Shown: piece by piece, positions 5,323 to 21,536 of the stretch
Layout of the letters: the number at the start of each line of letters is the position of its first letter
Numbering within the stretch: position 1 is the stretch's first letter
Assembly: GCF_000143965.1 (NCBI RefSeq)
Contig: NC_014365.1
Span: 1,267,501 to 1,331,500 of the forward strand
Source: Desulfarculus baarsii DSM 2075
Lineage (GTDB): Bacteria > Desulfobacterota > Desulfarculia > Desulfarculales > Desulfarculaceae
Reading direction: 5' to 3'
DNA: 64,000 nt
Position numbers and translations under genes: made by a program
The notes under the pieces: model-generated
What the model was told of the DNA's origin: nothing
What the model saw: only the letters and a program-made list of their open reading frames with translations
Database searches by the model: none

Positions 5323-6654
5323 CTAGAGGATAGGCAGGTAGCGCTCCAGCTCGAAGTCGGTGACGTGCAGGCGGAAGGCGTCCCACTCGGCCTTCTTGTT
5401 CTCGATGAATTTCTCGAAGACGTGGTCGCCCAGGACTTCCTTGACGAAGGCGCTCTTTTCGGTGATGGCGATGGCCTCGCCCAGGGTCGAGGGCAGGGAG
5501 GTGATGCCGTGTTCGGCCAGCTCCTTCTTGCTCATCTCGAAGATGTCCTCTTCCACCGGCTCGGGCAGGACGTAATTTTCCTCGATGCCCTTGAGGCCGG
5601 CGGCCAGTTGCACCGCGAACGACAGGTAGGGGTTGCAGGCAGGGTCGGGGCAGCGCAGCTCGCAGCGGGTGGCCATTTCCTTGCCGGGCTTGTACATCGG
5701 CACGCGCACCAGCGCCGAACGGTTGCGGCGGGCCCAGGCCACGTAGACCGGGGCCTCGTAGCCGGGCACCAGGCGCTTGTAGCTGTTGATCCACTGGGCG
5801 ATGATCGAGCAGAACTCGGGGGCGTGCTTGAGCAGGCCGGCGATATAGGATTTGCCGGCGGCCGACAGGTTGTACTTGTCGGAGCCATCGAAGAACACGT
5901 TGCGGCCGTCTTTGAACAGCGACTGGTGGGTGTGCATGCCCGAGCCGTTTTCGCCGAAGATCGGTTTGGGCATGAAGGAGGCGTAGTAGCCGTGCTTCAT
6001 GGCGATCTCCTTGACGGTCAGGCGATAGGTCATGGCCGCGTCGGCCATCTTGAGCGACTCTTGATAGCGCAGGTCGATCTCGTGCTGGCTGGGGGCGACC
6101 TCGTGGTGGCTGTACTCGACCTTGATGCCCATGCTTTCCAGGGCGAAAATGGTGTCGCGGCGCAGGTCGCTGGCCACGTCCAGGGGGGTCAGGTCAAAGT
6201 AGCCGCCGCGGTCGAGCACTTCGGTGCCCTCGGAGTTCTTGAAGTAGAAGAACTCCAACTCGGGGCCGACGTACATGGTGTAGCCCTTGTCGGCGGCCTT
6301 TTTGAGCTGGCGCTTGAGCACGTAGCGAGGATCGCCCACGTAGGGGGTCAGGTCGGGGTTGAGCACGTCGGTGAACATGCGGGCCACCGCGCCCTTGTCG
6401 GCCGGACGCCAGGGCAGGATGGCGAAGGTGTTGGGGTCGGGCATGGCCACCATGTCCGATTCGTCGATGCGGGCGAAGCCCTGGATCGACGAGCCGTCAA
6501 AGCCCATGCCTTCTTCCATGGCCAGTTCCAACTCGGCCGGCGAGATGGCGAAACTCTTGAGCATGCCCAGAATGTCGGTGAACCACAGGCGGATGAACTT
6601 GACGTTGTTGTCGCGCACCGCTTTGAGTACTTGTTCTTTATTCATGTCGGACAT
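5323..6654 (-). CDS. glnA: Glutamine synthetase, type I (alpha subtype)
   Basis: Makes glutamine from glutamate, ammonium and ATP; the entry point of nitrogen assimilation. 443 residues. Motifs: MGFDGSSIQGF, the metal/glutamate segment GPELEFFYF, SHHEVAPSQHEID, and GSGMHTHQSLF. The region that in GSI-beta carries the NLYDLPPEE adenylylation site reads PEPVEEDIFEMSKKEL instead, and the GSI-beta insertion is missing, so this is the GSI-alpha form without the adenylylated Tyr. A strong Shine-Dalgarno AAGGAGG lies 10 nt before Met-1 (Met-4 is an alternative). It has its own sigma-54 promoter at 6765-6780 and its own terminator, downstream of amtB-glnK. Confidence 0.97.
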   Translation of the reverse strand: MSDMNKEQVLKAVRDNNVKFIRLWFTDILGMLKSFAISPAELELAMEEGMGFDGSSIQGFARIDESDMVAMPDPNTFAILPWRPADKGAVARMFTDVLNPDLTPYVGDPRYVLKRQLKKAADKGYTMYVGPELEFFYFKNSEGTEVLDRGGYFDLTPLDVASDLRRDTIFALESMGIKVEYSHHEVAPSQHEIDLRYQESLKMADAAMTYRLTVKEIAMKHGYYASFMPKPIFGENGSGMHTHQSLFKDGRNVFFDGSDKYNLSAAGKSYIAGLLKHAPEFCSIIAQWINSYKRLVPGYEAPVYVAWARRNRSALVRVPMYKPGKEMATRCELRCPDPACNPYLSFAVQLAAGLKGIEENYVLPEPVEEDIFEMSKKELAEHGITSLPSTLGEAIAITEKSAFVKEVLGDHVFEKFIENKKAEWDAFRLHVTDFELERYLPIL

Positions 6655-6764
6655 TGGTTGGATTCCTCCTTGGGTTGTTCAATTCAAGTGACGGCGTCCG
6701 GTTGCCGCGCCGCTAGGGGCGCACTCGTGGGACGCCTCGCGCTTACCTGCCTTGTCGGGTGTCT

Positions 6765-6780
6765 TGCAAAGCGCGGGCCA
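6765..6780 (-). promoter_or_regulatory. Sigma-54 promoter of glnA
   Basis: Minus strand TGGCCCG-CGCT-TTGCA, exact -24 GG and -12 GC spacing. The predicted transcription start is near 6753, giving a leader of about 100 nt. This implies activation by an NtrC/NifA-type enhancer-binding protein; one is encoded at 9844-11406. Confidence 0.8.
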
Positions 6781-6788
6781 ATAGTTTC

Positions 6789-6800
6789 GTTATGGATAAC
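6789..6800. promoter_or_regulatory. Perfect palindrome GTTAT-GG-ATAAC next to the glnA -24 box
   Basis: GTTATGGATAAC has 5-bp perfect arms and sits 9 bp upstream of the -24 element. The position would suit a repressor or an architectural protein. No known consensus is matched. Confidence 0.3.
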
Positions 6801-6865
6801 TCATTGTGAGGGCTTGGTATATCAAAAAGCAACCCCCGGCGTGACCTCCGACCGCATTACCGATT

Positions 6866-6892
6866 TGTAGGAACGCGCCCGACATTCCTACA
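6866..6892. promoter_or_regulatory. Inverted repeat TGTAGGAA-N11-TTCCTACA, candidate enhancer of glnA
   Basis: Perfect 8-bp arms (6866-6873 and 6885-6892) around an 11-bp spacer, 86-112 bp upstream of the -24 box, the usual distance of enhancer-binding-protein sites. Each arm also contains the GGAA/TTCC half-site known from methanogen NrpR operators, though with N11 instead of N6 between them. The remainder of the 418-bp gap 6655-7072 holds the sigma-54 promoter, a palindrome and a terminator-like hairpin; no gene is seen in it. Confidence 0.55.
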
Positions 6893-7002
6893 CCCCCGTA
6901 GTCCGCGGCCAGCCCGGCGGCGCGAAAAACCGTGGCCCATCTGGCGCTGATGGCCAACCCGCCAGACCGGAACGAGGCCGGCGGCGGATGGCGGGGCAAA
7001 GG

Positions 7003-7036
7003 CCGGGCGGCCGGCCTTAATCGGCCAACCGCCCGG
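7003..7036 (-). terminator. Hairpin after glnK, possible terminator
   Basis: CCGGGCGG / CCGCCCGG perfect 8-bp stem with an inner GGCC-rich loop, 37 bp after the glnK stop. There is only a short T tract behind it, so it may be an attenuator or a processing site separating amtB-glnK from glnA. Confidence 0.45.
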
Positions 7037-7072
7037 TTGTTTGGGGTTTATCTGAAACGGTCCCGCCTATTA

Positions 7073-7414
7073 TCAGCCCATAGCAGGAGGACCGGCCTCG
7101 CCCGTTCTGATGCGCATGCTTTCCTCGACGGGCAGCACGAACAGCACCCCGTCGCCAATTTGCCCGGTGCGCGCGCCCTTGACGATGGCCGCCTTGGCCG
7201 CCTCGACGAAGTTGTCGTTGACGCCGATCTCCAGGCGCACCTTCTTGATCAGGTTCACTTCCTGTTCGACGCCGCGGTAGGTCTCGCTGAAGCCCCGCTG
7301 ACGGCCCGAACCCACCACGTTGGTCACCGACATGTTGAAGATCTGCGCCTCGTAAAGGGCCTGCTTGACGTCGTTGAGCCTTTCGGGCTTGATGTAGGCT
7401 ATTATCAGCTTCAT
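7073..7414 (-). CDS. glnK: P-II nitrogen regulatory protein (GlnK type)
   Basis: Trimeric signal protein that binds ATP/ADP and 2-oxoglutarate and gates AmtB. 113 residues, MKLIIAYIKPERLNDVK start, GRQ (37-39) with the conserved Gln-39 for Mg/2-oxoglutarate binding, and the B-loop KGARTGQIGDG. The T-loop reads GFSETYRGVEQEVN: Tyr-46 is kept, but position 51, the tyrosine uridylylated by GlnD in enteric P-II, is Gln. Control by uridylylation at the canonical site is therefore not possible. It is 15 bp downstream of amtB, the standard amtB-glnK pairing, with AAGGAGG before the ATG. Confidence 0.96.
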   Translation of the reverse strand: MKLIIAYIKPERLNDVKQALYEAQIFNMSVTNVVGSGRQRGFSETYRGVEQEVNLIKKVRLEIGVNDNFVEAAKAAIVKGARTGQIGDGVLFVLPVEESMRIRTGEAGPPAMG

Positions 7415-7429
7415 GACTAGCCTCCTTAC

Positions 7430-8767
7430 CTACCTGGTAGTGAAAATCTGGAAGTCTGAATAAGCTTCCATGCCGTGTTCTTCAATATCCAGGCCGCGCA
7501 GTTCTTCTTCGAGGGAGACACGGAGCCCGACCGTACTCTTGATGATAGCAAAGACAATGGCCATGCTGATCATGGCGAAAGCCCCCACGGCGATGACGCC
7601 GGTGGCCTGCACGCCAAGCTGGGTGAAACCGCCGCCGTGCAGCAGGCCGTCATTGGCCAGGCCCAGGGCCTTCTGGCCCCAGACGCCCACGGCCAGCGTG
7701 CCGAAAGCGCCGTTGAAGGCGTGCACGGGGATGGCGCCCACCGGGTCGTCGATGTGCAGCTTGTCCAGGAGCATCACGCCCATGACCACCAGCATGCCGG
7801 CCAGGATGCCGATGACGATGCTGGCCCCGGGCGAGACCACCGCGCAAGGGGCGGTGATGGCCACCAGGCCGGCCAGCGCGCCGTTCATGCACATGGTCAG
7901 ATCGGGCTTGCCATACATCATCCACACCGTGCACATGGCCGCCAGCGCGCCGGCGGCGGCCGAGAGGTTGGTGTTGACGGTGATCAAAGAAATGGCCCCG
8001 GCGTTGGAGGCGCCGCTGGCGGCCAACTGCGAGCCGGGGTTGAAGCCGAACCAGCCGAACCACAGGATGAACACGCCAAGCGCCGCCAGCGGCACGCTAT
8101 GGCCGGCCAGCACGCGGCTCTTGCCGTCGGCGGTGTACTTGCCGTAGCGGGGGCCCAGGAACATGGTGCCCACCAGGGCGATCCAGCCGCCGGTGCTGTG
8201 GACGATGGTCGAGCCGGCAAAGTCGAAAAAGCCCATCTGCGACAACCAGCCACCGCCCCAGGTCCAGTGGCCGATGATGGGGTAAACCAAGGTGGTGATC
8301 ACCGCCGTCGACAAAATGTAGGAAGTGAACTTGGTGCGCTCGGCCATGCCGCCGCTGACGATGGTGGCCGCCGTGCCGCAGAACACCGCCTGGAAGAACC
8401 AGGAGGCCAGCAGGGGCAGGTTGCCGTCGCTCATGCCCTCCAGGGCGAAGCCGCTCAGGCCGATGAACGAGTTGCCCTCGCCGAACATGAAGCCATAGCC
8501 CACCAGGAAGAACAGGATGCTGGCCAGGGCAAAGTCCATGAAGTTCTTGGCCAGGATGTTGACCGCGTTCTTGGCCCTGGTCAGGCCCGTCTCGACCATG
8601 GCGAAGCCGGGCTGCATGAAAAATACCAGGAATGCGGCCAAGAGAACCCACATGGTGTCCATGTCGTTGACCGCCGGCGGCGCGCTCTCCTCGGCCATGA
8701 CCGCGCCGGGCAGCAGCAGCCCCAAGGTCAAAAGCTTCATCGTGTTCTTGGTGATACGCCTTAGCAT
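7430..8767 (-). CDS. amtB: Ammonium transporter AmtB
   Basis: Inner-membrane ammonium channel/transporter, 445 residues. A cleavable signal peptide (MLRRITKNTMKLLTLGLLLPGAVMAEE-like, about 25 residues) precedes eleven hydrophobic helices. Family motifs visible: FFMQPGFAMVETGLTRAKN, GGWIALVGTMFLGPR, FGWFGFNPGS and the region with DPVGAIPVHAFNGAFGTLAVG, which includes the pore histidine. AAGGAG lies 8 nt before the ATG at 8767. Upstream is the porin gene and downstream glnK; all three are predicted to be driven by the sigma-54 promoter at 9699-9714. Confidence 0.97.
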   Translation of the reverse strand: MLRRITKNTMKLLTLGLLLPGAVMAEESAPPAVNDMDTMWVLLAAFLVFFMQPGFAMVETGLTRAKNAVNILAKNFMDFALASILFFLVGYGFMFGEGNSFIGLSGFALEGMSDGNLPLLASWFFQAVFCGTAATIVSGGMAERTKFTSYILSTAVITTLVYPIIGHWTWGGGWLSQMGFFDFAGSTIVHSTGGWIALVGTMFLGPRYGKYTADGKSRVLAGHSVPLAALGVFILWFGWFGFNPGSQLAASGASNAGAISLITVNTNLSAAAGALAAMCTVWMMYGKPDLTMCMNGALAGLVAITAPCAVVSPGASIVIGILAGMLVVMGVMLLDKLHIDDPVGAIPVHAFNGAFGTLAVGVWGQKALGLANDGLLHGGGFTQLGVQATGVIAVGAFAMISMAIVFAIIKSTVGLRVSLEEELRGLDIEEHGMEAYSDFQIFTTR

Positions 8768-8788
8768 CTCAGCCGCTCCTTTTCTGCG

Positions 8789-8814
8789 AACCCGGCCCGC
8801 GCCGGGGCCGGGTT
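8789..8814. terminator. GC-rich hairpin between porin gene and amtB
   Basis: AACCCGGCCC / GGGCCGGGTT, perfect 10-bp stem, 6-nt loop, no U tract. It may partly terminate or stabilise the porin message upstream of amtB, allowing unequal expression within one operon. Confidence 0.5.
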
Positions 8815-8832
8815 TCGCGTGATGCTCCCCGC

Positions 8833-9609
8833 CTAGAAGGAAACCGACAGGGATATGCCGTAGAAGAAGTTGTTTTCCTCGGTGTAGATGGCCTTGCCCG
8901 CGTCACGGATCTCGCTGTCGACCAGGGAGGTGTAGGTGATCATGGGCTTGACGGTGAAGTACTTGCAGAAGCTGATGGGCAGCGAGGCGTAGATCGACCA
9001 GTCGGAGAAGTGGGACTCGTCCACGCCGAAGTAGCCGTTGTTATACTCGCTGTTGCCCCAGCCGATGCTGGCGCCGATGGCCGCGGCCCACGAGACCTTG
9101 CTGACGACCTCGGGCAGGTCCAGCGAGTAGTCCAGGGCGCCGCGGAAGTAGAACGAGCCGGCCAGTTCGTCCACGTCGTAGTAACAGGTCAGGCTGGGGG
9201 TGACGATCCAGTTGTAGGCCACGCCCACGTAAAGTTCGGTGGTGTCGTTGCCGCCGTTGGGGAAGGTGTAGACGATGGCGCCCACCGGGATGGATAAATC
9301 GCCCACCGGGATGGTGTAGTTGAGGGTGATGTCGATCTCGTCGACCTCGTGCTGACGGCCGTTGACGTCGGTGAATTCGTAGTCGCCCCAGACGTTGAGG
9401 CTGAAGTTGCCCACGCCCACCGTGGCCGAAGGCTGCAGCACCGGGTCGTCGACCAGGAGCATGCCGCGCCAGACGTACTTGCTGTTGAAGGTGGCGTCAA
9501 AGGTCGCCGTCACTTCCGGGCCGCTTTCCTCGGCCACGGCCAAACCAGCCCCCGCCGCCGAAACCAACAGCGCCAGGGCCAGCATCATCGCACAAACCAG
9601 CTTCTTCAT
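8833..9609 (-). CDS. Outer-membrane beta-barrel, TorF-like putative porin
   Basis: 258 residues with a signal peptide (MKKLVCAMMLALALLVSAAGAGLAVA, about 26) and an all-beta mature part ending in SLSVSF, with the C-terminal Phe required for barrel insertion. The mature N-terminus FDATFNSKYVWRGMLLVDD resembles the 'V-S-x-Y-x-F/W-R-G' start of TorF/gcw_chp-family putative porins, which are often encoded beside glnK-amtB. The frame is open further upstream, but GGAGAGAG before the ATG at 9609 and the signal peptide fix the start. It is the first gene after the sigma-54 promoter at 9699-9714; a role in passage of ammonium or small amines is inferred from context only. Confidence 0.7.
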   Translation of the reverse strand: MKKLVCAMMLALALLVSAAGAGLAVAEESGPEVTATFDATFNSKYVWRGMLLVDDPVLQPSATVGVGNFSLNVWGDYEFTDVNGRQHEVDEIDITLNYTIPVGDLSIPVGAIVYTFPNGGNDTTELYVGVAYNWIVTPSLTCYYDVDELAGSFYFRGALDYSLDLPEVVSKVSWAAAIGASIGWGNSEYNNGYFGVDESHFSDWSIYASLPISFCKYFTVKPMITYTSLVDSEIRDAGKAIYTEENNFFYGISLSVSF

Positions 9610-9698
9610 TTTCTCTCTCCTCGCATTTGGCAAATAATCTCGCTTCCAACTTTGGACGGCTTGCGTGCCGCGGCCGTCCACCCTTGGCGCATATGCAT

Positions 9699-9714
9699 GG
9701 CAACAGTTGTGCCA
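9699..9714 (-). promoter_or_regulatory. Sigma-54 promoter of porin-amtB-glnK
   Basis: Minus strand TGGCACA-ACTG-TTGCC, a near-perfect -24/-12 element. The start of transcription is expected near 9687, about 78 nt before the porin ATG. A GCATATGC palindrome (9689-9696) lies at the predicted start site. The rest of 9610-9843 contains the terminator of the activator gene and a short repeat; no gene. Confidence 0.85.
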
Positions 9715-9777
9715 AGTGGCCGCGCGAAGGTCGACCATCGCAAAAAGTGCGTTAATACGTGATGTTGGCAAAAAGAA

Positions 9778-9804
9778 GGCCGCCTGGTCGAAAACCTGGC
9801 GGCC
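9778..9804 (-). terminator. Rho-independent terminator of the NifA-like gene
   Basis: Minus strand GGCCGCCAGG / CCAGGCGGCC stem with one mismatch, 7-nt loop TTTTCGA, followed by TTCTTTTTG. It lies 40 bp after the stop of the activator gene. Confidence 0.85.
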
Positions 9805-9815
9805 GTGGAAAGGCT

Positions 9816-9827
9816 ACAAAAATGTAA
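9816..9827. repeat. ACAAAAATGTAA element, copy 1
   Basis: A 12-bp AT-rich block with an ACA-N4-TGT dyad, 16 bp beyond the activator stop. An identical copy is at 11503-11514 on the other side of the same gene. Two copies in an otherwise GC-rich sequence are suggestive of a shared binding site, but chance is not excluded. Confidence 0.3.
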
Positions 9828-9843
9828 GAACTTGTGTGGTGGC

Positions 9844-11406
<1,563 letters not shown>

Positions 11407-11502
11407 GCCCGTCTTTCCAACCTTGCGTTTTCCGTTGAGCGGCAGAACCTTGGCTTTGGTCATGATTTTATTCTATGCGGCCGGCCGTGGCCAGTTTTTG
11501 CG

Positions 11503-11514
11503 ACAAAAATGTAA
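11503..11514. repeat. ACAAAAATGTAA element, copy 2
   Basis: Identical to 9816-9827. It lies in the 130-bp gap between gltD and the NifA-like gene, about 100 bp upstream of the latter's start, consistent with an operator for that gene. No clear -35/-10 pair was seen in this gap apart from a TAGAAT hexamer near 11475. Confidence 0.3.
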
Positions 11515-11536
11515 CCTCGGCCGACCGCCGCTAGGC

Positions 11537-12985
<1,449 letters not shown>

Positions 12986-13043
12986 TTACGCCACCTGTTC
13001 GCCTTTGTCCTTGTCGCGCCGCCTTTTGCCTGGGCGCGGCCGG

Positions 13044-16000
13044 TTAGCCCAAATGCACCTGTTCGGCCTGCGTGCGCCGCGAGGCCATGTCCTCCTCGGC
13101 CATCTGCTTGAGCGCCCGGCGGTATTCCATGGGCATCACGCGCACGAACAGCGGAAGCACGCCGTCCCAGTTCTCAAGCATCCATTTGGCCTTGGGGCTG
13201 CCGGTGTATTTCAGGTGGTTTTCGATCAACTGGCGCAGCAGGGCGATGTCGGCCCGCTCGGCCAGGGGTTCGATGTCGATCATGTCCAGGTTGCAACGCA
13301 GGTCGAAATCCTGGTCCGGGTCGTAGACATAGGCGATGCCGCCGCTCATGCCGGCGGCGAAGTTGACGCCCGTGCGGCCCAGGACAACCACGCGGCCGCC
13401 GGTCATGTACTCGCAGCCGTGGTCGCCCACGCCCTCGACCACGGCCATGGCTCCGCTGTTGCGGATGGCGAAGCGCTCGCCGGCCAGGCCGGCGAAGTAG
13501 ACCTCGCCGGCGGTGGCTCCATAGAGGGCCACGTTGCCGACGATGACGTTTTTGGCCCAATCAAAAGCGGCCCCGCGCGGCGGCCGCACGACGATCTTGG
13601 CCCCGCTGAGGCCCTTGCCCACGTAGTCGTTGGTGTCGCCATCGACGATCACCGTCAGGCCCTTGGCCCCGAAGGCGGCCAGGCTCTGGCCGGCCGAACC
13701 GCGCATGTTCAAGACGATGTAGTCCTCGGGCAGGCCCTCGGCGCCGTGGCGCTTGCTGATCTCGTAGCTGAGCATGGTGCAGGCGGTGCGGTTCAGGTTG
13801 CCGATGGGCAGATCCAACTGCACGGGCTGCTTTTTCTCCAGGGCCGGCAGGCACTGGGCGATAAGCTGGCGGTCGAGGATCTTGTCGATGGCGTGGTCTT
13901 GCTCTTGCACCTTGCGCACGGCGTGGATCTTGGACTCGGGCGGCACGCTGAAGATGGCCCCGAAGTCGAGCTTGCGCGCCTTCCAGTGGCCGACGCCGTC
14001 GCGCATCCTCAGCAGGTCGGCCCGGCCGATCATCTCGTCGACGCTACGCAGGCCCAGGCTGGCCATGATCCGGCGCATCTCCTCGGCCATGAAGTAGAAG
14101 TAGTTGACCAGATATTCCGGCTTGCCCGTGAAGCGCTTGCGCAGGCGCGGATCCTGGGTGGCCACGCCCACCGGGCAGGTGTTGCTGTGGCACTTGCGCA
14201 TCATCACGCAGCCCAAAACGATCAGCGCGGCCGTGCCGAAGCCGTATTCCTCGGCCCCCAACAGGGCGGCGATGGCCAGGTCGCGGCCGGTGCGCATGGT
14301 GCCGTCGGTCTGCACCACGATGCGCCCGCGCAGGTCGTTTTTGACCAGCACCTGGTGGGTCTCGGCCAGGCCCAACTCCCAGGGCAGGCCGGCGTGCTTG
14401 ACGCTGGACAGCGGGCTGGCCCCGGTGCCGCCGTCGCCGCCGGAGATCAGCACCGCGTCGGCGTGACCCTTGGCCACGCCGGCGGCGATGGTGCCCACGC
14501 CCACCTCGCTGACCAGCTTGACGTTGATGCGGGCCAGGGGGTTGGCGTTTTTCAGGTCGAAGATGAGCTGGGCCAGGTCTTCGATGGAATAGATGTCGTG
14601 GTGGGGCGGCGGCGAGATGAGGCTGACGCCCGGGGTGGAGTTGCGGACGCTGGCGATCTCGACGTTGACCTTGTGGCCGGGCAACTGACCGCCCTCGCCG
14701 GGCTTGGCCCCCTGGGCCATCTTGATCTGGATCTCGGTGCAGTTGGCCAGGTATTCGCTGGTCACGCCGAAGCGGCCCGAGGCCACCTGCTTGGTCTGGC
14801 TGCACAGGCTGTCGCCGTTGGGCAGGGGCAGGTAGCGCTTGCGGTCCTCGCCGCCCTCGCCGCTGTTGCTGCGGCTGCCCAGGCGGTTCATGGCGATGGC
14901 CATGGCCTCGTGGGCCTCGCGGCTGATGGAGCCGAAGCTCATGGCCCCGGTGACGAAGCGCTTGACGATCTGACTGGCCGGCTCGACCGTATCGATGTCC
15001 ACGGGCGTGGCCGGGGCGAAGTCGAACAGGCTGCGCAGGGTGGTCAGCTCCTCGTCGCGCTGGTTGATCAGCCTGGCGAACTTTTCGTAGGCCTCGGGGT
15101 CGTTTTCGCGGGCGGCCTGCTGCAAGAAGCGGATGGTGTCGGGCGTCCAGGCGTGGCGCTCGCCGTCGCGGCGCAGGGCGTAGCGGCCGCCGCTGTCCAA
15201 AACCGGCGCGTCGTAGATGGCGTTGTTGAAGCCGTGCTCGTGGCGGGCGATGGCCTCCAGAGCCAGGTCTTCGATCTCCAGCCCGCCGATGCGCGAGGGC
15301 GTGGCCGTGAAGTACTTCTCGACCAGATTGCGCGAAAGCCCCAGCGCCTCGAAGATCTGCGCCCCGCGATAGGAGCGCATGGTGCTGATGCCCATCTTGG
15401 AGAGCACCTTGAGCAGGCCCTTCTTGGTGGCCAGGATGTAGTTCTCCACCGCATCCTGGATGGACATGTCCGGCGGGAAATCGCCGCTTTCGAGCATTTC
15501 GGCGATGGTTTCGAAGGCCAGGTAGGGGTTGACCGCCGTGGCGCCATAACCCAAAATCAGCGCGAAATGCATCACTTCGCGAGGCTCTCCCGATTCGACG
15601 ATGAACGACACGCTGGTGCGCAGGCCCTGGGCCACCAGGTGCTGGTTGACCGCCGAGGTGGCCAGTAGGCTGGGGATGGGCACGCGGTCGTGGCAAACGG
15701 CGCGGTCGCTGAGGATCAACACCGCGCAACCGCCGCGCACGGCCTCCTCGGCCTGGTGGCGCAGGCGCTCCAGGGCCGCGTCCACGCCGGAGGCGCCCTT
15801 GTTGAGGTCGAAGGTGATGTCCAGGGTCACGCTCTGGAATTCGCTCTGGCCGTGGGCGCGGATGTTGGCCATGTCCTCGTTGGTGAGGATGGGCGAGGCC
15901 ACCTTGAGCATGCGGGCGTGCTCGGGCGATTCGGCCAGCAGGTTGCCCTGGCGGCCGATGTAGGTGGTCAGGCTCATGACCAGCTCCTCGCGGATGGGGT

Positions 16001-17630
16001 CGATGGGCGGGTTGGTGACCTGGGCGAAGAGCTGCTTGAAATACTCGAACAGCAGCCGCGGCCGGTCGGAGAGCACGGCCAGGGGCGTGTCGTCGCCCAT
16101 GGAGCCCACCGGCTCCTTGCCGTCGCGGACCATGGGACGCAAAATCACGTCCAGATCCTCGCGGGAGTAGCCAAAGGCCCGCTGGCGGGCCAGCAGGGTC
16201 TGCTTGTCGACGCTCACCGTGCCGTTGCCGTCGAACAGGCCGCGCAGCTCCACGCGGTTGGCCGTGACCCAGCGGCGATAGGGCTTGCGCCGGCAGATGT
16301 GGGCCTTGACCTCCTCGTCGCCCAGCAGGCGGCCCTGCTCGGTGTCGACCATGATCATCTTGCCGGGGCTGAGCCGACCCTTTTTGGCGACGTTGTCGGC
16401 GGCGATGTCCAGAACGCCCACCTCCGAGGCCATGACGATGAAGCCGTCGTTGCTGACGACGTAGCGCGCCGGGCGCAGGCCGTTGCGGTCGAGGGTGGCG
16501 CAGACCCGCACGCCGTCGGTGGCCACCAGGGCGGCCGGGCCGTCCCAGGGCTCCATGAACATGGCGTGGTATTCGTAAAAGGCCCGGCGGTCGTTGCCCA
16601 TGTAGTATTTGACGCCCCAGGCCTCGGGGACCATCATCATCATGGCGTGGGGCAGGCTGCGGCCGGTGAGCACCAGAAGCTCGAGCATGTTGTCGAAACA
16701 GGCGCTGTCCGAGCCGCTTTCGATGATGATCGGCAGAATCTCGCGCAGATCCTGGCCCAGGGCCTCGTGGCTGAGGGTGCTGTAGCGGGCGCGCATGTTG
16801 TTGATGTTGCCGCGCAGGGTGTTGATCTCGCCGTTGTGGCCCAAAAAGCGAAACGGCTGGGCCAAGTCCCAGGTGGGGAAGGTGTTGGTGCTGTAGCGCT
16901 GGTGGACCACGGCCAGGGCGCTTTTCATGCTGGGGCTGGCCAGGTCGGGGTAGAACCTGGGCACCTGGTGGGCCAGCATCATGCCCTTGTAGCAGATGGT
17001 GCGGCTGCTGAGGGTGTTGATGTGGAACATGGCCACGCCATCGGCGCTGGAGGCCTTGACGCGCTTTTCCACCTTGCGGCGGATGACGAACAAGCGCAGC
17101 TCGAAGGCGTCCTGGCCCTCCTCGGGGCCGCTGATGAAGACCTGCTTGACGTCGGGACAGTTGGCCCGGGCCGTCTGGCCGACGGTGGAGCGGTCGTGGG
17201 GCACGTCGCGCCAGCCCAGAACCACGCAGTCTTTCTTGCGAGCCTCGTCCTCGAAGATCTCCATGCATTCGCGGCTGGCGAAGCGGTCGGTGGGCATGAA
17301 GACCATGCCCACGGCGTAGCGGCCCGCCGGCGGCAACTCGAAGCCCAGGCCGGCGTCGGGGCCGCGGAAAAATTCATCGGGCACCTGGAACAACAGACCC
17401 GCGCCGTCGCCGGTGTCGGGATCGCTACCCACCGCGCCGCGATGGGTCAGGTTGATCAGCACCGAGATGCCTTTGTCGATGATGTCGCGGGTTTTGGCGC
17501 CATTGATGTTGGCGACGAAACCGACGCCGCAGGCATCGTGCTCGAACGAGGGGTCGTAGAGCCCGGCCTTGGGCGGCAGTCCGCCACGCCGGGGTTGATG
17601 GCTATCGTCCTTGGGTTGTCCAGGCGTCAT
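13044..17630 (-). CDS. gltB: Glutamate synthase large subunit
   Basis: Transfers the amide nitrogen of glutamine to 2-oxoglutarate, giving two glutamates. 1528 residues, typical of bacterial GOGAT alpha subunits. A 33-residue propeptide ends before Cys-34 in HDACGVGF, the N-terminal nucleophile of the class II amidotransferase domain. The FMN/synthase domain carries KPGEGGQLPGHKVN, SPPPHHDIYSIEDLAQL and the 3Fe-4S motif CHSNTCPVGVATQDPRLRKR. The C-terminal third is the GXGXG beta-helix (NVIVGNVALYGATAGEVYFAG). AAGGA lies 11 nt before the ATG. The gap of 83 bp to the amidotransferase shows no clear promoter, so it is probably in the nadE-led operon. Confidence 0.97.
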   Translation of the reverse strand: MTPGQPKDDSHQPRRGGLPPKAGLYDPSFEHDACGVGFVANINGAKTRDIIDKGISVLINLTHRGAVGSDPDTGDGAGLLFQVPDEFFRGPDAGLGFELPPAGRYAVGMVFMPTDRFASRECMEIFEDEARKKDCVVLGWRDVPHDRSTVGQTARANCPDVKQVFISGPEEGQDAFELRLFVIRRKVEKRVKASSADGVAMFHINTLSSRTICYKGMMLAHQVPRFYPDLASPSMKSALAVVHQRYSTNTFPTWDLAQPFRFLGHNGEINTLRGNINNMRARYSTLSHEALGQDLREILPIIIESGSDSACFDNMLELLVLTGRSLPHAMMMMVPEAWGVKYYMGNDRRAFYEYHAMFMEPWDGPAALVATDGVRVCATLDRNGLRPARYVVSNDGFIVMASEVGVLDIAADNVAKKGRLSPGKMIMVDTEQGRLLGDEEVKAHICRRKPYRRWVTANRVELRGLFDGNGTVSVDKQTLLARQRAFGYSREDLDVILRPMVRDGKEPVGSMGDDTPLAVLSDRPRLLFEYFKQLFAQVTNPPIDPIREELVMSLTTYIGRQGNLLAESPEHARMLKVASPILTNEDMANIRAHGQSEFQSVTLDITFDLNKGASGVDAALERLRHQAEEAVRGGCAVLILSDRAVCHDRVPIPSLLATSAVNQHLVAQGLRTSVSFIVESGEPREVMHFALILGYGATAVNPYLAFETIAEMLESGDFPPDMSIQDAVENYILATKKGLLKVLSKMGISTMRSYRGAQIFEALGLSRNLVEKYFTATPSRIGGLEIEDLALEAIARHEHGFNNAIYDAPVLDSGGRYALRRDGERHAWTPDTIRFLQQAARENDPEAYEKFARLINQRDEELTTLRSLFDFAPATPVDIDTVEPASQIVKRFVTGAMSFGSISREAHEAMAIAMNRLGSRSNSGEGGEDRKRYLPLPNGDSLCSQTKQVASGRFGVTSEYLANCTEIQIKMAQGAKPGEGGQLPGHKVNVEIASVRNSTPGVSLISPPPHHDIYSIEDLAQLIFDLKNANPLARINVKLVSEVGVGTIAAGVAKGHADAVLISGGDGGTGASPLSSVKHAGLPWELGLAETHQVLVKNDLRGRIVVQTDGTMRTGRDLAIAALLGAEEYGFGTAALIVLGCVMMRKCHSNTCPVGVATQDPRLRKRFTGKPEYLVNYFYFMAEEMRRIMASLGLRSVDEMIGRADLLRMRDGVGHWKARKLDFGAIFSVPPESKIHAVRKVQEQDHAIDKILDRQLIAQCLPALEKKQPVQLDLPIGNLNRTACTMLSYEISKRHGAEGLPEDYIVLNMRGSAGQSLAAFGAKGLTVIVDGDTNDYVGKGLSGAKIVVRPPRGAAFDWAKNVIVGNVALYGATAGEVYFAGLAGERFAIRNSGAMAVVEGVGDHGCEYMTGGRVVVLGRTGVNFAAGMSGGIAYVYDPDQDFDLRCNLDMIDIEPLAERADIALLRQLIENHLKYTGSPKAKWMLENWDGVLPLFVRVMPMEYRRALKQMAEEDMASRRTQAEQVHLG

Positions 17631-17713
17631 CGTGCTTGCAGTCCTTAGCGCTGACCGCCGCTGCCGGCGGCGTATTTGGTTGTGTTCCGGGGCGGTTGGC
17701 GCGCCCGGCGGCC

Positions 17714-18391
17714 CTAGCGGCCCGAAAGCGCGGCCCAGAGATTGCCGTAAATCCGCTGGGCGTGCTGGTTCATTATTTTACCTTGATCGGCCCAGCCAGG
17801 CGCGATTTCCTGGCGCTGGGCCGGGTTTTCGTACCACTGGTCGACGATGGCCGCGTCGACCTCCACGTGGAATTGCAGGGCGTGGCCCCGGCCGAAGCGA
17901 AAGGCCTGGTGGGGGCAGCGCTCCGAGGCGGCCAGCAACTCCGCGCCGGCGGGGATGTGAAACATGTCGTTGTGCCACTGCAACACCCAGGGGCGCTCGT
18001 CCAGCCCGGCCAAGAGGGGATCGGCCAGGCCGGCCGGGGTCAGCTCGATCTGAAACCAGCCCACTTCCGGCCGCGGCGAACGCGTCACCGGCGCGCCCAG
18101 GGCCTTGGCCATGAGCTGGGATCCCAGGCACACGCCGAGCACCGGCCGGCCGGCCAACAGGGCCCGGCGCAGCAGGGCAGTCTCGGCGGCCAGCCAGGGG
18201 TGCTCGGCTTCGTCGTAGACGTTCATGGGCCCGCCCATGCTGACGATCAGGCCATAGCCGGCGTCGTCGGCCGGCAAGGCCTGGCCGGCGTAAAGATGGC
18301 GCACGTCCAGGGCGCAACCCTTGTCGGCCAGAAAAGCGCCCAGCGTGCCCGCCGGCTCGGCCGGATGATGCTGCAAAATCAAGACGTTCAT
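17714..18391 (-). CDS. Class I glutamine amidotransferase (GuaA-type domain protein)
   Basis: 225 residues, a stand-alone class I amidotransferase fold. The nucleophile is Cys-88 in PVLGVCLGSQLMAKALG; the catalytic His/Glu pair is in ALQFHVEVD (about residues 178-186). GGPMNVYDEAEHPWLAAE is typical of the YfeJ/GAT1_2 group of GMP-synthase-like proteins. No synthetase domain is attached, and the acceptor of the ammonia is unknown. The start overlaps the nadE stop as ATGA. It lies between two glutamine-dependent enzymes (NadE and GltB). A peptide- or gamma-glutamyl hydrolase role is possible. Confidence 0.88.
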   Translation of the reverse strand: MNVLILQHHPAEPAGTLGAFLADKGCALDVRHLYAGQALPADDAGYGLIVSMGGPMNVYDEAEHPWLAAETALLRRALLAGRPVLGVCLGSQLMAKALGAPVTRSPRPEVGWFQIELTPAGLADPLLAGLDERPWVLQWHNDMFHIPAGAELLAASERCPHQAFRFGRGHALQFHVEVDAAIVDQWYENPAQRQEIAPGWADQGKIMNQHAQRIYGNLWAALSGR

Positions 18392-20085
18392 TGACCCTCC
18401 CAGCCCGGGCGGTAGCGGTTGGTGATGGGCAGACGCCGGTCGCGGCCAAAGGCCTTGGGCGTGATCTTCACCCCCGGCGGGGCCTGGCGGCGCTTGTATT
18501 CGTTGAGATCGACCATGCGCACGACCTTGGCCACCACGTCCTTGTCGGCCAGGCCCAGGGCGGCGATCTCGTCGAGGACCATGTCCTGCTCGACATAGGC
18601 CTGCAAGATGGGGTCGAGCACGTCGTACTCGGGCAACGAGTCGGTGTCTTTCTGATCGGGGCGCAACTCGGCCGAGGGCGGTCGCTCGATGGTGCTGGCG
18701 GGGATCAGCTCGCGGCCGGCCCGTTGGTTGACCCGCCGGGCCAGGCGATAAACCAGCGTCTTGGGCACGTCCTTGATCAGGGCGAAGCCGCCGGCCATGT
18801 CGCCGTAGAGCGTGCAATAGCCCACGGCGGTCTCGCTCTTGTTGCCGGTGGTCAGCACCAGCCAGCCAAAGCGGTTGGACAGGGTCATCAGGATGGCCCC
18901 ACGGATGCGCGCTTGGAGGTTTTCGGCCTCGACGCCCAGGGGGCCTGGGCCCAGGGCCGGGCGCATCTGGTCGATAAAGACGTCGTAGACGCCCTTCAAC
19001 GGCACGGTGAGCAGCTCCACGCCCAGGTTGGCGGCCAGCAGTTGGGCGTCGGAGAGGGTCTCGCCCGAGGTGTATTGGCTGGGCATGGTCACGCCCACCA
19101 CGTTTTGGGCCCCCAGGGCGCTGACGGCCACGGCGGCGGTCAGGGCCGAATCAATGCCGCCGCTGAGGCCCAGGGTCACCTTGCCAAAGCCGTTTTTGCG
19201 CACGTAGTCGGCCAGGCCCAGGCCCAGGGCGGCCAGCACTTCGTCTTCGGTGTTTAGCTCCGGCGCGCGGGTTTGGGCGGCAATTTTGCCGCTTGGCGCG
19301 GCCGGAGCGGCCACGTGGACGATCGTCGCGCCGGGCGTGGGCCGAGGCGGCCGCGTCGGCAGTTCCAGGTCGTGGATATACAGCCCCTGAGTGAAACGCG
19401 GCGCGCAGGCGCTCAATTGGCCGTCCGGGTCGATGATCATGCTGCCGCCGTCAAAGACCAGCTCATCCTGGCCGCCGACCAGGTTGGCATAGCACATGGC
19501 CGCGCCGGAACGCCTGGCGAATCCGCCGAGGATCTCCAGGCGCTGGCCCAGCTTGCCGGCGTGAAAAGGCGAACCGGAGATGTTGATCGTCAGGCCCACG
19601 CCGGCCTGGGCCGCCACGCGCTCGACTTGGTTGCCGGCCAGCCACACGTCCTCGCAGATCGAGACCAGCACGCCAGTCCCGCCCATGTCGAGGATCAGGC
19701 ACTCGTCGCCGGCGGCGAAGTAGCGCCGCTCGTCAAAGACGCCGTAGTTGGGCAGCTCGATCTTGCGATAGACCGCCGCCACCCGGCCCTCGGCCAGCAC
19801 GGCCGCGGCGTTGCGCACCACCCCGCCCTCGGCCAGCGGAAAACCCACCACCGCCGTTACGCCCCGCGCCGCCAGGGCCAGGCGCTCCACGGCGGCCCGG
19901 GCGTCGGCCAAAAAACGCGGCTTGAGCAGCAGGTCTTCGGGGGGATAGCCGCAAACGGCCAGCTCGGGAAAGCAGACCACGCCCGCTTGGGCCTGGCGGG
20001 CCTGGGCCATGTAGTCGAGGATCATGGCCGTGTTGGCCGCCAGGTCACCCACGGTGGGGTTGATCTGGGCCTGGGCGATGCGCAA
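18388..20085 (-). CDS. nadE: Glutamine-dependent NAD(+) synthetase, TTG start
   Basis: Converts deamido-NAD to NAD using glutamine. 565 residues. The N-terminal nitrilase-type amidase has the catalytic triad Glu-41 (FPELAVCGYPPEDL), Lys-108 (YRKIELPNYGVFDE) and Cys-144 (SICEDVW). The C-terminal ATP-pyrophosphatase domain has LGLSGGIDSALTAAV and LTTGNKSETAVGYCTLYGD. No ATG fits the start: the homologous region begins RIAQAQINPTVGD, directly preceded by TTG (20083-20085) with GGGAGG 7 nt upstream. The TGA overlaps the next ATG. A promoter is at 20317-20345, leaving a leader of about 225 nt. Confidence 0.95.
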   Translation of the reverse strand: MRIAQAQINPTVGDLAANTAMILDYMAQARQAQAGVVCFPELAVCGYPPEDLLLKPRFLADARAAVERLALAARGVTAVVGFPLAEGGVVRNAAAVLAEGRVAAVYRKIELPNYGVFDERRYFAAGDECLILDMGGTGVLVSICEDVWLAGNQVERVAAQAGVGLTINISGSPFHAGKLGQRLEILGGFARRSGAAMCYANLVGGQDELVFDGGSMIIDPDGQLSACAPRFTQGLYIHDLELPTRPPRPTPGATIVHVAAPAAPSGKIAAQTRAPELNTEDEVLAALGLGLADYVRKNGFGKVTLGLSGGIDSALTAAVAVSALGAQNVVGVTMPSQYTSGETLSDAQLLAANLGVELLTVPLKGVYDVFIDQMRPALGPGPLGVEAENLQARIRGAILMTLSNRFGWLVLTTGNKSETAVGYCTLYGDMAGGFALIKDVPKTLVYRLARRVNQRAGRELIPASTIERPPSAELRPDQKDTDSLPEYDVLDPILQAYVEQDMVLDEIAALGLADKDVVAKVVRMVDLNEYKRRQAPPGVKITPKAFGRDRRLPITNRYRPGWEGQ

Positions 20086-20316
20086 AAAAACGCCTCCCGC
20101 CGGGTCGGAGCGACTGGTGGCCGGGCCGCGTCGGCCCGCGGGCGCGAAAGCCCTCCCACCGGCCTGGCTGGCCCGTGGGCCGCCTCGGTCTCCGCCCGAT
20201 GTTCCGGTTGTGGCGGCAAAAGAGGGCGACGACGCCCCCTCGAGAAATTTGTGTTGCAATCCCGCGTGATTGCCGCTTGTTTCGCCTTGACCGCGCCCAA
20301 TGCGGCAATGGCTGCA

Positions 20317-20345
20317 TTTATGCCACGTAAATGTCATTTTGTCAA
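20317..20345 (-). promoter_or_regulatory. Promoter of the nadE-amidotransferase-gltBD operon
   Basis: Minus strand -35 TTGACA (20340-20345), 17-bp spacer, -10 CATAAA (20317-20322). It diverges from the nrpR promoter; the 144 bp between the two -35 boxes carries several palindromes. The 225-bp leader down to nadE holds GC-rich sequence with no gene or known riboswitch recognised. Confidence 0.6.
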
Positions 20346-20392
20346 TAGCCCCCGCCAGTCAATGGGTCTTGGGCAAACTTGCCGTTCACTGC

Positions 20393-20468: not shown

Positions 20469-20482
20469 CGGCAATATTGCCG
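20469..20482. promoter_or_regulatory. Perfect 14-bp palindrome CGGCAATATTGCCG next to the nrpR promoter
   Basis: A fully symmetric site ending 7 bp before the nrpR -35 box. It is the strongest operator candidate in the divergent region and would suit autoregulation. Confidence 0.5.
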
Positions 20483-20489
20483 TTTTGGC

Positions 20490-20518
20490 TTGACAGCGCC
20501 CCTGGCGGAGGCTAGCCT
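20490..20518 (+). promoter_or_regulatory. Promoter of nrpR
   Basis: -35 TTGACA (20490-20495), 17-bp spacer, -10 TAGCCT (20513-20518), about 28 bp before the ATG at 20547. It rules out translation starts upstream of about 20525. Confidence 0.7.
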
Positions 20519-20546: not shown

Positions 20547-21536
20547 ATGGACGAAAGAAGCCGCCGCAAACTGCTCGATATCCTGCGCGTATTGGCCGAG
20601 GCCGACCGCCCCCTGGGCGGCACGCGCATCGCCCACGCCCTCAATCTGGCCGGCAAGGACATGAGCCAGCGGACGATCCGCTATTACCTCAACCTCACCG
20701 ACGCCGAGGGGCTCACCGAAAGCGTCGGCCGCCGGGGCCGCCAGCTCACCACGCGGGGCAAGGCCGAGTTGGAGAGCGCCTACGTCGTCGACAAGGTCGG
20801 CTTTGTCGCCGCCCGGGCCGACGCCCTGACCTATGGCATGAATTTCCGCCTGCGCCAGGGCAAGGGCAGCGTGGTCGTCAACATCTCCACCTTCGAGACG
20901 GCCCGGGCCGGCCACGCCATCGAGGTCATGCGCCGGGTCTATCAGGCCGGCCTGAGCATGGGCCAGCGCCTGGCCCTGGCCGGGGCCGGCGCGCGCCTGG
21001 GTCGGTTGGTCGTTCAACCAGGCGAGATGGCCGTGGCCACCATCTGTTCGATCAGCGTCAACGGCGTGCTGCTGGCCGAGGGCATCCCCACCACCAACCG
21101 TTTCGGCGGCCTGCTGCAGATGCGCGGCGGCAAACCCCAGCGCTTTTTGCAGATCATTAACTACGACGGCACCACCCTCGATCCGCTGGAGATCTTCATC
21201 AAGGGCCAGATGACCAGCGTCAGCCAGGCCGCGGCCACCGGCGACGGCGTGGTCGGGGCCAGTTTTCGCGAGATCCCCACCCAGGCCGCCGAGGCCGCCC
21301 GCCGCCTGGGCGCGCGCATGGAGCGGGCCGGCCTGGGCGGCATCTTGATGATCGGCCGGCCCGGCCAGCCCCTGCTGGAGGTGCCGGTGTCCCAGGGCCG
21401 GGTGGGCATGATCGTTTTGGGCGGGCTCAACCCCATGGCCGCCGTCGAGGAAGTGGGCGTGCCCACCGGCAACCGGGCCATGGGCACGCTGTTGCCCTTC
21501 GAAGACCTGCGCCCTTTCACCGAAGTGCTGCGCTAA
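20547..21536 (+). CDS. nrpR: NrpR-type nitrogen repressor (winged helix + DUF128)
   Basis: 329 residues. An N-terminal winged helix-turn-helix (about 1-72: RRKLLDILRVLAEADRPLGG, then SQRTIRYYLNLTDAEGLTES and a GRRGRQLTTRGKAELE wing) is followed by one DUF128/NrpR sensory domain (about 75-329) with FVAARADALTYGMNF, TICSISVNGVLLAEGIPTTN and PMAAVEEVGVPTGN. In methanogenic archaea NrpR represses glnA and nif genes and is released by 2-oxoglutarate; many archaeal forms have two such domains, this has one. GGAG lies 7 nt before the ATG. It diverges from nadE-gltBD and sits in the nitrogen cluster, so a role in nitrogen control is likely but not proven. Confidence 0.88.
   Translation: MDERSRRKLLDILRVLAEADRPLGGTRIAHALNLAGKDMSQRTIRYYLNLTDAEGLTESVGRRGRQLTTRGKAELESAYVVDKVGFVAARADALTYGMNFRLRQGKGSVVVNISTFETARAGHAIEVMRRVYQAGLSMGQRLALAGAGARLGRLVVQPGEMAVATICSISVNGVLLAEGIPTTNRFGGLLQMRGGKPQRFLQIINYDGTTLDPLEIFIKGQMTSVSQAAATGDGVVGASFREIPTQAAEAARRLGARMERAGLGGILMIGRPGQPLLEVPVSQGRVGMIVLGGLNPMAAVEEVGVPTGNRAMGTLLPFEDLRPFTEVLR

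Follow-up and report, generated by a model that had tools for sequence, protein, structure and literature searches.

A bacterial NrpR with a single regulatory domain in Desulfarculus baarsii and a candidate operator code at genes of glutamate synthesis

The 329-residue product of nrpR in Desulfarculus baarsii DSM 2075 is an ordinary bacterial NrpR, and the best reading of its surroundings is that it probably acts as a 2-oxoglutarate-relieved repressor of glutamate synthesis that binds GGCAA-N2/N3-TTGCC dyads. Its single regulatory domain is the usual bacterial form. What is new, and makes a stronger result than the gene itself, is a predicted operator code, a two-site module and a glutamate-synthase target that can all be read from the DNA. 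Nearly all descriptions of NrpR come from methanogens, and a search of the open literature brought up no paper on the NrpR regulon of a bacterium. With operators that can be read and a target that is defined, nitrogen control becomes directly testable in many anaerobes, among them sulfate reducers, Nitrospirota and Dehalococcoidia, and a one-domain NrpR offers a simple system for learning how the domain responds to 2-oxoglutarate when neither a partner nor TBP is present. The features of the 64,000-nucleotide stretch analysed (hereafter ‘the window’) are collected in Table 1.

Table 1. Features of the nrpR region and the neighbouring nitrogen cluster (positions in the window)
Feature	Position	Strand	Basis
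nrpR, NrpR with a single NRD, 329 aa	20547..21536	+	Pfam HTH_12 and PF01995; AF2 pLDDT 91.3; Foldseek 3nek
Winged helix, aa 11-75, recognition-helix stretch SQRTIRYYL	20577..20771	+	HTH_12, E 2.3e-16
NrpR regulatory domain (NRD), aa 84-322	20796..21512	+	PF01995
Putative N2 operator at nrpR promoter, GGCAATATTGCC within the 14-bp palindrome CGGCAATATTGCCG	20469..20482		family conservation
Predicted nrpR promoter, TTGACA (20490-20495), 17 nt, TAGCCT (20513-20518)	20490..20518	+	sequence; geometry in ~15 relatives
Predicted divergent nadE promoter, TTGACA (20345-20340), 17 nt, CATAAA (20322-20317)	20317..20345	-	conserved in family members
Putative degenerate N3 operator GGCAATGGCTGCA, 2 mismatches, abutting nadE -10 box	20304..20316		intact GGCAA-N3-TTGCC there in relatives
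Second exact N2 operator (putative), GGCAAACTTGCC	20372..20383		sequence match
Third exact N2 site, of uncertain function, within nadE	19279..19290		sequence match
nadE, glutamine-dependent NAD synthetase	18388..20085	-	Pfam
Class-I glutamine amidotransferase (GATase)	17714..18391	-	Pfam
gltB, glutamate synthase large subunit	13044..17630	-	NCBIfam equivalog, 1780 bits
gltD, glutamate synthase small subunit	11537..12985	-	TIGR01317, 650 bits
nifA, sigma-54 activator	9844..11463	-	TIGR01817 equivalog, 566.8 bits, cutoff 528.9
Sigma-54-type -24/-12 site TGGCACAACTGTTGCC, before OMP-amtB-glnB	9699..9714	-	pattern match
amtB	7430..8767	-	Pfam
glnB (P-II)	7073..7414	-	Pfam
Sigma-54-type site TGGCCCGCGCTTTGCA, before glnA	6765..6780	-	pattern match
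glnA	5323..6654	-	Pfam

A preliminary description of this DNA had taken the ORF for an NrpR lying beside a perfect palindrome; both the ORF and the palindrome are real, and the identity of the protein is borne out by its domains and predicted fold. The ORF opens with ATG and encodes an N-terminal winged helix (HTH_12, 59.9 bits against a cutoff of 21.4), followed by an NRD that aligns with positions 1-237 of the 238 of NRD1_2/PF01995 (265.5 bits against a cutoff of 25, E 5e-79) and is the only match to that profile in the 3.66 Mb genome. The archaeal counterpart of the recognition-helix stretch reads ERAVRYHL. The closest solved structure by sequence is Methanocaldococcus jannaschii MJ0159 (3nek, E 1e-23), whose construct corresponds to the second regulatory domain (NRD2) of the two-domain protein (100% to the ORF of locus L166). 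The AlphaFold model superimposes on it with a TM score of 0.88 by target length and an rmsd of 2.2 (Foldseek). The next fold match, UPF0317/DUF1445 (2pif), is weak (E 1e-5, TM 0.37-0.46).

The same description had presented the protein as a minimal, single-domain NrpR; the single NRD stands, the oddity does not, since all 142 bacterial ORFs recovered have one NRD. They come from about ten phyla (Nitrospirota, Desulfobacterota and relatives, Chloroflexota, Actinomycetota, Verrucomicrobiota, Armatimonadota, Dictyoglomota, Margulisbacteria and others). NrpR is present in 78 of the 394 genomes of the Desulfobacterota-phylum set, and no relatives were found among viral contigs. In a tree of 63 bacterial and Methanococcal NRDs, a branch with an SH-aLRT support of 96 sets the bacterial domains apart, and Methanococcal NRD1 and NRD2 form other branches (support 100 and 98). 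A profile built from bacterial NRDs only scores archaeal NRD2 (mean 136 bits) above NRD1 (mean 114 bits). Eleven residues are common to bacteria and NRD2 only (including R199, N295 and G208), eight to bacteria and NRD1 only (including T223, G234 and E302), and two to NRD1 and NRD2 while absent in bacteria. This distribution fits a bacterial NRD near the pre-duplication state, with Methanococci as the archaeal sample, because the bacterial domain holds residues that are split between NRD1 and NRD2 there.

The residues also bear on the ligand. The D. baarsii protein keeps the invariant archaeal-NRD residues N112, T165, C167, D212, R241, G292 and G293, as well as two residues, R199 and N295, that NRD2 alone keeps on the archaeal side. 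The suggestion that its response to 2-oxoglutarate differs from the archaeal one finds no support in this pattern or elsewhere in the analysis. That the NRD might instead sense another nitrogen or redox metabolite, such as glutamate, glutamine or an NAD precursor, would agree with nadE being the direct neighbour of nrpR and with the weak resemblance to UPF0317, but the retained residues and the nature of the targets, which are glutamate synthesis genes, make such a ligand improbable.

The palindrome CGGCAATATTGCCG ends 64 bp before the nrpR ATG. Taken alone it is only mildly unlikely, as shuffling the 209-bp gap yields a perfect 14-bp palindrome 1.3% of the time, and the window holds 11 perfect palindromes of at least 14 bp; its significance comes from its conservation in relatives and its recurrence at a second target. 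On these grounds CGGCAATATTGCCG is assigned to a putative operator code, GGCAA-N2/N3-TTGCC, that is kept next to nrpR across the family. A dyad, exact or with at most one mismatch, lies upstream of nrpR in 20 of 22 family or class loci (L001-L022), and the upstream DNA of 22 related nrpR loci (8.1 kb) contains 17 N2, 14 N3 and 5 N4 dyads, as against none in 72.7 kb of flanks. Within the genome, GGCAANNTTGCC (GGCAA-N2-TTGCC) occurs at 15 sites, three of them beside nrpR, versus one for the reversed control; genome scans allowing one mismatch are too noisy to use (276 matches versus 72 in the control). The arrangement relative to promoters also recurs. In about 15 relatives, the N2 dyad ends 8-10 nt before the nrpR -35 box, with its centre near -51, and relatives carry an N3 dyad ~162 bp from N2, directly after the -10 box of the promoter divergent from nrpR; in the window, the centre of the degenerate N3 lies 165.5 bp from that of N2. 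Conservation and promoter geometry thus back the view that an operator-like palindrome marks the promoter of nrpR itself. Palindromic operators at nitrogen-assimilation promoters, as expected of the NrpR family, can be recognized here by sequence conservation only.

Several further observations concern the dyads and their setting. Exact dyads in coding sequence (L023, L028 and L036) or in a prophage-like region (L032) are probably chance occurrences or repeats, and three tandem copies of GGCAAATTTGCC in a prophage, beside an integrase (L033, 1501-1641), are probably unrelated repeats. In one genus (L010, L011, L015, L017 and L019-L021), nadE is replaced as the gene divergent from nrpR, with the same N3 site; the replacement pair, named by eye, resembles MetV/heterodisulfide-reductase-linked proteins. 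The search for dyads ahead of nrpR in Methanococci yielded no clear motif.

The second target, which the preliminary description had passed over together with the neighbouring nadE-gltBD-nifA-amtB-glnB-glnA cluster, is a gene not linked to nrpR that encodes a glutamate-synthase-like protein with an FMN domain (locus L026; Pfam Glu_synthase). In this genome it carries an exact N2 dyad in its leader, plus an N2 at -272 and an N3 at -108, each with one mismatch. Orthologues in NrpR-positive relatives are 82-85% identical and have a similarly spaced dyad pair. With this genome included, the pair is found in 11 of 12 readable promoters of NrpR-positive genomes (one of the 11 is N2 plus N4, and several include a single mismatch), the twelfth, where the gene start is called short, having N2 alone. 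At these promoters N3 lies ~23-24 nt after TTGACA, directly against the -10 box. In the leader it is followed at once by a conserved stretch, for example AGTAAAACTAATAT (L220-L231). A genome-wide search of 22 genomes for the two-site pattern gave 20 matches, of which none fell in the four NrpR-negative genomes of the set; the reversed control had no match. The spacing is 162.5 or 163.5 bp in 12 of the 20. Many of the genomes are close kin, so the 20 matches are not independent events, although the two loci, the nrpR/nadE intergenic region and the glutamate-synthase gene, are; the twentieth match (L246), inside the purF reading frame, was set aside.

That the GGCAA dyads serve some other regulator, with nrpR as a bystander, is very unlikely. 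Such a view would account for the absence of GGCAA dyads upstream of nrpR in most of the Nitrospirota loci examined (L073-L147), but not for their presence right beside nrpR in almost every close relative, nor for the lack of the pair at the glutamate-synthase gene in all seven relatives without NrpR, which have only a 50-53% form of that gene; moreover, GGCAA-N4-TTGCC stands at nrpR in some loci of Actinomycetota, Chloroflexota and Syntrophales. In Nitrospirota, nrpR often lies between a glutamate-synthase gene and glnB-glnA, and two weak candidate operators were noted there, ACAA-N4-TTGT, between the -35 and -10 boxes of an upstream promoter, and TTCC-N9-GGAA.

In the mechanism that we propose, NrpR would dimerize and, as a winged-helix dimer, bind GGCAA-N2/N3-TTGCC dyads at two places, in the gap that separates nrpR from the divergent nadE-GATase-gltBD-nifA genes and at the promoter of the unlinked glutamate-synthase-like (FMN) gene. 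A site abutting the -10 box is a classic repressor position. When nitrogen is plentiful, NrpR at N3 would block the start of transcription from there; N2, ~162 bp away, would belong to the same module and, beside nrpR, would also mark an autoregulated promoter. Under nitrogen shortage, 2-oxoglutarate would rise, bind the single NRD and release the repressor. Direct block of RNA polymerase by one protein would be the simplest model, because TBP is, to our knowledge, absent from bacteria and no second NRD protein is encoded in this genome. A simple DNA loop between N2 and N3 was not adopted, since 162.5 bp makes ~15.5 turns of 10.5 bp rather than a whole number of them, which renders simple looping doubtful. 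In methanogens, binding of 2-oxoglutarate makes NrpR leave its operator (PMC11957540).

Other observations count against this reading: on the nrpR side the N2 dyad is placed upstream of the -35 box, where activators can also bind; the N3 of the window is itself degenerate; and no dyad was found at amtB, glnB and glnA of the window or at nifH. The first of these invites an alternative in which NrpR is an activator or dual regulator, aiding RNA polymerase from N2 at nrpR and repressing from N3 elsewhere. This is unlikely despite the conserved placement of N2, since N3 abuts the -10 box at both the glutamate-synthase and the nrpR-divergent promoters, a second nrpR dyad falls between -35 and -10 in two loci (L005 and L009), and the characterized archaeal relatives are repressors (PMC11957540, PMC4902934).

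The repressor reading has a wider, more speculative extension. The genes divergent from nrpR run nadE-GATase-gltB-gltD-nifA-OMP-amtB-glnB-glnA (5323-20085, minus strand). Only two sigma-54-type sites were found in the window, both on the right strand and in the gaps before OMP-amtB-glnB and glnA; their count is no more than chance over the window, so that position is the argument. Elsewhere in the genome (L216, near 503360), a nif operon comprises nifH, two P-II-like genes and a nifD-like gene, in the order known from methanogens, and a sigma-54-type site, TGGCACGGCCCATGCT, precedes nifH. Among 75 named bacterial loci from several phyla, 38 have glnA, glnB, amtB or the same glutamate-synthase gene within 4 kb of nrpR. 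A cascade from NrpR through NifA to sigma-54 is possible. The full proposal, a pre-duplication-like NRD with a two-spacer, ~162-bp module forming a glutamate-synthesis switch, and NrpR at the head of a nifA-containing operon, above a NifA/sigma-54 cascade running amtB-glnB, glnA and nif, is tentative; if true, it would place an archaeal-type 2-oxoglutarate repressor above a bacterial NifA/sigma-54 cascade.

Among characterized systems, NrpR of Methanococci (Methanococcus maripaludis, and MJ0159 of M. jannaschii) shares with the D. baarsii protein the HTH_12 domain, the NRD fold and, as predicted here, a palindromic operator and nitrogen-assimilation targets, but has two fused NRDs per ORF (27 of 27) where there is one here. 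The targets also differ: NrpR of M. maripaludis represses nif and glnA (PMC9765008, PMC4902934), whereas the dyads described here lie at glutamate synthase, nrpR and nadE, with none at nifH or glnA. NrpRI and NrpRII of Methanosarcina likewise include a same-family DNA-binding protein over nitrogen genes; in that pair DNA is bound by NrpRI, for which NrpRII contacts TBP (PMC3960522), whereas the D. baarsii gene, the sole one with PF01995, has no partner with a second NRD. Some members of the phylum carry two convergent nrpR paralogues ~3 kb apart (loci L038-L044; genomes G206, G263, G318, G349 and G411), possibly a bacterial counterpart of the two-protein system. The nearest parallels are the other bacterial HTH_12-NRD proteins (Nitrospirota, Chloroflexota, Actinomycetota and others), which have the same architecture with a single NRD and whose genes often adjoin glutamate synthase, glnB or glnA; they differ in that some have a 4-bp dyad spacer and that Nitrospirota apparently use another operator.
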